NCBI RefSeq assembly: GCF_010692725.1 | Contig: NZ_JAAFZB010000095.1 | Location: 1 to 64,000 of the forward strand | Source of the DNA: Flavihumibacter soli | Lineage (GTDB): Bacteria > Bacteroidota > Bacteroidia > Sphingobacteriales > Sphingobacteriaceae | Reading direction: 5' to 3' | DNA: 64,000 nucleotides | Program-made: the position numbers and the translations under genes | Notes under the pieces: generated by a model | The model's input: the letters and a program-made list of their open reading frames with translations, nothing else | Databases searched by the model: none | What the model was told of the DNA's origin: nothing | Part shown: one piece after another, positions 54,835 through 63,354 of the stretch | Layout of the letters: each line of letters starts with the position of its first letter | Numbering within the stretch: position 1 is the first letter of the stretch

Positions 54835-54877
54835 TTTCACGCAGAGCAAAATAAGAAGGCGCAAAGAGCGCAAAGAA
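54835..54877 (+). repeat. Left repeat of the GxxExxY unit
   Basis: TTTCACGCAGAG, then GCAAAATAAGAAG and the direct pair GCGCAAAGA / GCGCAAAGAA. It starts 9 bases after the DUF3828-like stop codon. The middle part reappears, inverted, at 63092-63112. Confidence 0.8.
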
Positions 54878-54948
54878 TTATCACAGTCTCCGCTTTAATC
54901 TTCACCCGAATAAATAAGAAGTAACGAAAAAGACGAAATATCTGCGCC

Positions 54949-55338
54949 CTAACCTGCTGTCTCTAAGTTATTCACAATGCGATGAAGGCCATCTTTTAAA
55001 ATCTTGCAATTGAAGTTTATCAATAGTCCCAGTTTTAGCTGTGAGATTTTCAGGTAAGTAAGTAATTGTGCGTAATGAACAGAAGCCAGAGATTCAATAG
55101 CTTTTACTTCGACAATAATTTTGTCTTCTACGACCATATCTAATCTGTAACCAACATCCATTCTAATCTCTTTATACACAAATGGCATTGGTACCTGCTG
55201 TCTGACCTCCAGGCCCATCTGTCTGAGATCATATGCAAGTGCATTCTCATAAGAAGATTCGAGCAAACCAGGCCCAATATTTTTGTGCAATTCGAGTGCT
55301 GCTCCGATAATTTGATATGAAAGATCATTTTCTGTCAT
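54949..55338 (-). CDS. GxxExxY protein (PD-(D/E)XK_3 family)
   Basis: 129 residues. The name-giving motif is G24-L-L-E27-S-S-Y30. A PD-(D/E)XK-type core follows with D67 (GYRLDMVV) and E77-V-K79 (IIVEVKAIE), then VHYAQLLTYLKISQLKLGLLINFN. The fold is that of restriction-type nucleases; biochemical function is unproven. The family is scattered across bacteria by horizontal transfer. The flanking inverted repeats make it likely to be part of a mobile or formerly mobile unit. Confidence 0.9.
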   Translation of the reverse strand: MTENDLSYQIIGAALELHKNIGPGLLESSYENALAYDLRQMGLEVRQQVPMPFVYKEIRMDVGYRLDMVVEDKIIVEVKAIESLASVHYAQLLTYLKISQLKLGLLINFNCKILKDGLHRIVNNLETAG

Positions 55339-55473
55339 TCTTTAAATTAAGAAAAACAGAAATTTTAACAAAGAGAGTTTGCCTGTGCCGCTCAGCAAAA
55401 TTCGGGTTATCTAATGCCATGACAAAACTTACGTTGCTTAAGCGAACGAATTTCTTATAGATTTACGTCAATA

Positions 55474-55541
55474 TCTCTGCGGCCTTTGCGCAAAAATACT
55501 CTGCGGCCTCTGCGTGAAATGAGTCGGCCCTGCGTGAAATG
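55474..55541 (-). repeat. Right repeat of the GxxExxY unit
   Basis: CTCTGCGGCC appears at 55474-55483 and 55498-55507, with TTTGCGCAAAAATA between, then CTCTGCGTGAAA and a second CTGCGTGAAATGA. It is inverted relative to the left repeat. It ends 13 bases before the methyltransferase stop codon. Confidence 0.8.
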
Positions 55542-62825: not shown

Positions 62826-63354
62826 ACTTATAAATGGCTTAAATTAATTTGAAAACACATCCAAATTAAGCGATTAAAATCAGATATCTGGTTTGATGAT
62901 AAAATCTTTACACCTTGCTTTCCGCAGTCCTTAAAATCTTGCAAATAAGTGAACTGTTCCCGCGGATTCTAAGAACATTGGCAAAATGATAAAATAAGGA
63001 TGCTAAGTTAGGAGACTATTTATTTCACGCAGAGGTCGCAAAGTTAGTAGCAGACTAGTTTAGACCGAGGGTAGAGGTTAGGCTTTGGGGGCTTTGCGTT
63101 TTCTTATTTTGCTTTCGTGCCCAAAAGGCTTTTAAAATGCTATTGATGATTTATAGATTATGTAATCGCGGATAAACCGCGGATTTCCTCAGGTTCTAAC
63201 CTTTTAAAACTCTCTGATCTGCGCTTGGGACTGTTAGTAAACTTCAACCTAGGCGATATTTCGAAAGGCATATTTAGAAAAGTAAACAGGCTTTAGTTAA
63301 TTTCGCTACTTGTTGTCCCTGATAAGGGTTGTTCTCCACTCTAATTTAAAACAG
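62826..63354. other. Intergenic region upstream of pgi
   Basis: No gene was seen in these 529 bases. They hold the short repeat unit at 63023-63112 and a small hairpin CGCGG-ATAAA-CCGCG (about 63167-63181). pgi and the M16 pair diverge from this region. Confidence 0.6.
63023..63112. repeat. Gene-less relative of the GxxExxY unit ends (MITE-like)
   Basis: It begins TTTCACGCAGAG (63023-63034) followed by GTCGCAAAG, and ends with CTTTGCGTTTTCTTATTTTGC at 63092-63112 read in two parts: CTTTGCG, then TTTTCTTATTTTGC. The reverse complement of the end matches the left repeat of the 54835 unit with two differences in 21 bases. CGCAAAG and CTTTGCG are inverted around 48 bases of interior. Confidence 0.7.

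Follow-up and report, generated by a model that had tools for sequence, protein, structure and literature searches.

The window, the whole 64,000-nucleotide stretch of the Flavihumibacter soli genome that was analysed, contains an intact gene for a GxxExxY/PDDEXK_3 protein that lies between inverted arrays of a short heptad repeat. A second element, which has no gene inside, is found further along the same window. The features of the two are as follows:

54835-54875, forward strand: left inverted array, made up of TTTCACGCAGAG, the spacer CAAAATAAGAAGG and then CGCAAAG AG CGCAAAG
54949-55338, reverse strand: GxxExxY/PDDEXK_3 gene, 129 amino acids, intact (profile matches, fold model)
55475-55519, reverse strand: right inverted array, its heptads running to a final CTCTGCGTGAAA
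55528-55542, reverse strand: second, partial copy of the right end, a CTGCGTGAAATGA repeat (repeat family, 12-mer matches)
63022-63119, forward strand: solo element with no gene inside, left arm at about 63022-63044 and right arm at about 63083-63119
63198-63263, forward strand: GxxExxY C-terminal remnant beside the solo element (E 0.46, a weak match under the cut-off)

The original prediction placed the gene inside a perfect 12-bp inverted pair, and this pair is present: TTTCACGCAGAG occupies positions 54835-54846 and its reverse complement positions 55508-55519, one base away from the earlier placement at 55507-55518. The additional heptad units predicted at both ends are likewise found, at 54860-54875 and 55475-55514, and a copy of the 12-mer with one mismatch lies at 55528-55539. 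Four matches to the 12-mer with at most one mismatch occur in the window, a number never reached in 100 shuffles (mean 0.32), and the exact 12-mer occurs five times in the whole 4.44-Mb genome, from which its reversed control is absent. The 12-mer represents one word of a general heptad array. The neighbours of the unit are convergent: a 188-amino-acid protein is encoded on the forward strand and a methyltransferase on the reverse strand.

The protein encoded between the arms belongs to the PD-(D/E)XK_3 family, as proposed, with scores far above both cut-offs: PF13366 (PDDEXK_3) is matched at 139.9 bits against a 22-bit cut-off, and TIGR04256 at 146.3 bits against 35, with residues 6-122 aligned to positions 2-116 of 116. 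PDDEXK_3 and GxxExxY are the only Pfam and NCBIfam families recovered, and a Y1/HUH tyrosine transposase is not among them. The residues D67, E77 and K79, cited earlier as a sign that the gene is not decayed, are all present in an intact frame. Among 49 aligned relatives, D67 is kept in at least 90%, while the invariant positions are G22, P23, G24, L25, E27, Y30, E77, K79, N108, F109 and R120. The predicted fold model (pLDDT 93.5) resembles PD-(D/E)XK nucleases, and nuclease matches top both structure searches: the best Foldseek row is lambda exonuclease (E 3.5e-3, with none at 1e-3), and the best VIA row is 4ic1 (Z 9.4, most rows being under Z 8), which we take to be Cas4. The Holliday-junction resolvase 1gef follows with a middling VIA score (Z 7.3). 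The modeled fold, together with the D...ExK residues, points to a PD-(D/E)XK nuclease; if the enzyme cuts junctions or hairpins, a palindrome would be a fitting target for it. Searches for PDB relatives by sequence returned one sub-significant row each, and PHROGs gave one weak match to a family of unknown function. In the cyanobacterial units described below, all 31 genes encode 125 amino acids and the median dN/dS over 103 pairs is 0.124, indicating that the protein is kept by selection. At three loci (L423, L424 and L425), the open frame of the gene runs upstream into the arm, which would add SRRDAEAQRR in front of the normal start.

In the surroundings of 30 GxxExxY genes from kin genomes, the heptad word reads CRCWRAG, with a word-to-word spacing of mostly 9 (32 pairs) or 8 (10 pairs) bases; the array period overall is 8-10, and the arrays around these genes mostly point inward from both sides. 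The words are concentrated close to the gene: CGCARAG/CTYTGCG occurs at 3.8 per kb within 100 bp and 4.5 per kb at 100-200 bp, falling to 0.1-0.5 per kb beyond 300 bp, and near control methyltransferase genes it reaches at most 0.36 per kb (a single locus of each of the two kinds, GxxExxY and methyltransferase, was not long enough for this comparison). Tandem word pairs occur at 3.45 and 2.41 per kb near GxxExxY genes, and none were found within 300 bp of the control genes at 30 four-helix-bundle and 29 methyltransferase loci.

A total of 97 GxxExxY loci were collected: 30 among the best-scoring matches in kin genomes, 40 hand-picked from listed matches in repeat-rich genomes, and 27 from genomes chosen for the repeat, for which three of 30 were excluded as too short. 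Five of the 97 have no usable frame, leaving 92 genes. Of these, 46 have an array no more than 300 bp away, a biased rate since the loci were picked by score, by hand or by repeat, as against none of 30 four-helix-bundle loci, and 23 of the 92 have an inward-pointing array pair on both sides. The statement that such tracts flank GxxExxY genes in other phyla holds for several of them, far above control genes: 19 of 27 full-length loci have arrays within 300 bp, most densely within 100 bp, and a clean inverted pair is frequent at cyanobacterial loci (names of phyla and of the Nostoc family, here and below, are taken in part from record titles). An equal number of the genes, 46 of 92 and mainly those of one family branch, have no arrays within that distance.

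Gene and repeat also occur together at the level of whole genomes. Among 121 kin genomes, at least two arrays are found in 31 of 56 with a GxxExxY gene versus 5 of 65 without one (p 7e-9), and none of 5000 within-genus permutations is as extreme; related genomes are not independent, and permutation within genera helps only in part. The remaining 25 of the 56 gene-bearing genomes hold fewer than two arrays. A reversed three-word pattern is absent from the 121 genomes, and with a two-word pattern the reversed control gives 8 + 13 matches versus 410 + 48 forward. In a second set, 199 genomes from the family of G139, at least four arrays occur in 24 of 39 genomes with the gene versus 7 of 160 without it. 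The reversed control is enriched there too (at least four in 8 of 39 versus 3 of 160, p 1e-4), so part of that signal is composition, and the excess over the control persists (p 3e-8). From the opposite direction, 47 of 50 genomes picked solely for the repeat carry GxxExxY over cut-off, and none of 14 named control genomes does. Genes for four-helix-bundle proteins (TIGR02436) follow array genomes as well: 36 of 89 genomes with such a gene have at least two arrays versus none of 32 without. Within four-helix-positive genomes the GxxExxY effect is retained (31 of 55 versus 5 of 34). TIGR02436 was rejected as the array partner, because the correlation holds at genome level but its 30 loci have no array within 300 bp.

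Most copies of the repeat are solo, and many of the listed repeat loci are small palindromes. They are spread over Bacteroidota, cyanobacteria, planctomycetes, acidobacteria, alphaproteobacteria, treponemes and others. Among the matches listed from a scan across public genomes (80 of 113 stretches), only 3 of 80 repeat loci have a GxxExxY gene within about 105 bp and one more has it at 1.7 kb; some of the 80 lie near a contig or locus end, where a gene beyond could not be seen. The idea that the repeat is confined to the GxxExxY neighbourhood was therefore abandoned. Two repeat-rich genomes, G098 and G104, hold 22 and 26 array matches, and an array-type gene was seen in neither; both GxxExxY genes taken from G104 fall in the array-less branch described below. 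The repeat pattern is rare on viral contigs (8 stretches), and GxxExxY relatives occur in 8 of 72,556 plasmid records, all called non-mobilizable. Some palindromes are also repeated in tandem, head to tail, every 154, 122, 190-196 and 235 bases or so (G113:C1:1988605-1989244, G091:C10:356438-356829, G091:C15:27352-27762 and G097:C26:22550-22809).

The genome of the window itself has such dispersed solo copies: about a dozen elements of about 200 bp each, roughly 70-93% alike. The gene-bearing unit and these gene-free elements have inverted ends in common. Over 38 bp, the left arm of the unit (54838-54875), its odd spacer included, is 84-87% identical to the right arms of solo elements elsewhere in the genome. 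The right arm of the unit, when reverse-complemented, corresponds to the left arm (63022-63044) of the solo element in the window. About 80 bases beyond this solo element lies the weak GxxExxY C-terminal remnant, and the two (63022-63263) are possibly a decayed unit. In single-strand folding, the joined arms of the window unit have a z of -5.1; the solo element has a z of -1.6 and does not stand out in this test. Two more GxxExxY copies in the same genome are frameshifted (G000:C92:209174-209513 and G000:C96:579522-579861; L010 and L008), and no heptad arrays were found near either.

The arrays follow the phylogeny of the protein. On the tree of the 92 proteins, the presence or absence of arrays requires 10 changes, compared with 31.0 for shuffled labels, and none of 500 shuffles came as low. 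A single branch with 35 members contains 34 of the 46 array-less genes, and 45 of the remaining 57 proteins have arrays. The form of the array, here called its dialect, is similarly structured, as the period (8, 9 or 10) requires 8 changes versus 20.5 shuffled and the first letters of the word 8 versus 13.8 (0 of 300 as low in each case). Left and right arms have an equal period in 20 of 23 genes, and in the only three genomes of the set with two array-bearing genes each (G091, G105 and G034), the dialect differs between the genes. Among the matches listed, the spacer dialect extends genome-wide, being one base in G104 and G098 and two in G000, G021 and G119. Linked inheritance of arms and gene is sufficient to produce such a pattern, which therefore demonstrates a unit rather than a mechanism.

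Presence and absence of the unit at a fixed position were compared at two sites. In a sister species (G067, L043), the only one of 29 other loci with both the 188-amino-acid gene and the methyltransferase, the order M19 peptidase, 188-amino-acid gene, methyltransferase and transglutaminase-like gene is kept, and the gap between the second and third of these is about 33 bases and repeat-free, compared with 729 bases in the window. This locus is an empty site, though its DNA has diverged too far for the junction between empty and occupied alleles to be placed to the base. The second site is cyanobacterial, of the Nostoc family, where 145 genomes from the family of Dolichospermum were searched with the joined flanks of a unit from that genus; the loci returned with both flanks comprise 15 that are empty or solo and 31 that are occupied. 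Three states of the gap between two convergent genes occur here: it may be empty, contain a mini-palindrome, or contain a unit, in most cases 430-530 bp long. The predicted empty sites exist. No target-site duplication was seen at either site; the gaps of the empty alleles differ too, so no clean duplication can be read.

At the cyanobacterial site, whole units replace one another. Of the 31 occupied loci, 21 carry a type A unit, with five to six CGCRGAG-like words and at most one CGCAAAG, and 10 a type B unit, with four to nine CGCAAAG words and no more than one CGCRGAG-like word. The arm words go with the type of the gene. On the flank tree the A/B character changes 10 times, against a shuffled mean of 8.6, so the flanks do not predict the type of unit; on the unit tree it changes a single time. 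In one pair of genomes the flanks agree at 97% and 96% over 700 bp, and the units between them are 77% identical and have different arm words. A third genome, with flanks only 91% and 88% alike, carries a unit that is 96% identical to one of the two. The change in sequence between alleles is located at the arms. Three of the 10 type B units are inverted, match coordinates suggest three more inverted B units, and two of the empty alleles fall among type A genomes whose flanks resemble theirs. The best 30 matches of the A and B units are all at this one site; solo elements are at many. Exchange is observed here, and a jump of the unit to a new site was not caught. In five kin genomes (L013, L014, L015, L018 and L023), GxxExxY adjoins, by eye, what appears to be the same topoisomerase-like gene, a locus that is a possible second exchange site.

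Local linkage, genome co-occurrence, the states of one site, type switching, the arm matches to solo elements and the gap in the sister species make it very likely that arm, gene and arm, about 430-700 bp together, form one exchangeable unit. This upholds the original proposal that protein and repeats belong together, in that arms and gene are swapped as a single module at a fixed site. The unit is probably mobile, and together with its solo palindromes it appears to represent a mobile-element family not described before.

A different account of the same observations is that the palindromes are MITE- or REP-like and moved by an unrelated enzyme, the GxxExxY gene being a passenger captured between two copies. 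It draws on the 77 of 80 listed repeat loci that have no close GxxExxY gene, on six genomes that hold arrays and in which an array-type gene was not seen (G104, G098, G086, G114, G057 and G099), and on the four-helix-bundle genes, which also track repeat-bearing genomes. A passenger, however, is hard to reconcile with an arm dialect that tracks the GxxExxY protein tree and, at the Nostoc-family site, the gene type, and the four-helix correlation neither removes the GxxExxY effect nor places arrays near those genes; capture of a passenger is accordingly considered unlikely. Somewhat less likely again is a defence or conflict locus, in which diversifying selection acts on a small gene with an immunity or toxin-like role, ordinary homologous recombination swaps its alleles, and the arms serve as terminator or regulatory hairpins between convergent genes. 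The fast exchange of alleles in one fixed gap with convergent neighbours would fit such a locus, as would the weak similarity to Cas4 profiles, but PADLOC returned no convincing match (partial, weak hits to Cas4 at E 0.0013, Cas4b at 0.0017 and Cas5 at 0.0068), units change at the arms while flanks stay 96-97% identical, and the dispersed solo copies with matching arms and their co-occurrence with the gene are left unexplained. That purine-rich heptads are simply common near GxxExxY genes is very improbable, given that the compositional enrichment in the family of G139 is exceeded by the forward pattern, that reversed controls are nearly empty in the 121 kin genomes and that word density is at background beyond 300 bp.

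The preferred reading, an exchangeable and probably mobile unit with solo counterparts and nuclease-assisted copying, is as a whole slightly favoured over its alternatives taken together. The array-bearing GxxExxY proteins would constitute a PD-(D/E)XK subfamily encoded between inverted heptad arrays, and the solo palindromes with like arms would be its gene-free counterparts, as REPINs are to RAYT. The nuclease may recognise arrays of its own dialect, perhaps as a hairpin or cruciform, and may cut there or at a related palindrome; repair of the break could then copy the unit or a solo palindrome into the cut site. The chances that unit and repeats are spread by the nuclease in such a REPIN-RAYT-like or homing-like manner are about even. 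More tentative is the extension to a multi-phylum class of mobile DNA, in which array-branch GxxExxY nucleases copy their unit and the palindromes of their own dialect, and types displace each other at fixed sites, with no transposase or recombinase encoded by the element itself.

In the part of the open-access literature covered, no paper was found that relates GxxExxY, PF13366 or TIGR04256 to repeats or that explains either the proteins or the palindromes, and the papers containing the repeat words are, by title, all on unrelated subjects. Among known systems, MITEs are gene-free elements of about 100-300 bp that have their ends in common with a parent insertion sequence. The gene-free elements described here share their ends with a gene-bearing unit in the same way, but there is no DDE transposase, no target-site duplication was seen, and the arms are degenerate arrays rather than a fixed terminal repeat.

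Homing endonuclease genes include PD-(D/E)XK types such as I-Ssp6803I. The likeness is that a predicted nuclease gene is present or absent at a fixed site and exchanged between related genomes, with flanks uncorrelated with the gene, as the 10 flank-tree changes versus one unit-tree change indicate. In contrast to homing genes, the unit lies outside any intron, intein or host gene, is bounded by inverted arrays, and has gene-free copies dispersed elsewhere.

GTAG- and CGTC-tagged REPs are short palindromes that occur, like those described here, in many phyla, including cyanobacteria and planctomycetes, and the CGTC repeats have no transposase partner (PMC3733652). Their end words differ from the CRCWRAG heptads, and no GxxExxY or other nuclease partner was met in the part of that paper covered.

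The closest parallel is with REPINs and RAYTs, the latter being tyrosine (HUH) transposases of the IS200 kind (Bertels and Rainey 2011, PMC3116915). As far as that source was covered, both systems have a gene beside palindromic repeats with many matching solo copies in the same genome, several flavours per genome, each with its own gene, and inverted doublets able to form hairpins. The differences are that the enzyme here is of PD-(D/E)XK type rather than an HUH transposase, that the repeats are arrays of heptads with a period of 8-10 and the gene lies between two such arms, and that whole units replace each other at one site. On the more tentative multi-phylum reading, the GxxExxY unit would be a nuclease-only counterpart of the REPIN-RAYT system. 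GxxExxY proteins and palindromes both occur in many phyla, and linking the two supplies a testable function for the proteins and a source for one of the common types of intergenic repeat; it would mean that a nuclease without a transposase can keep up a dispersed repeat family.
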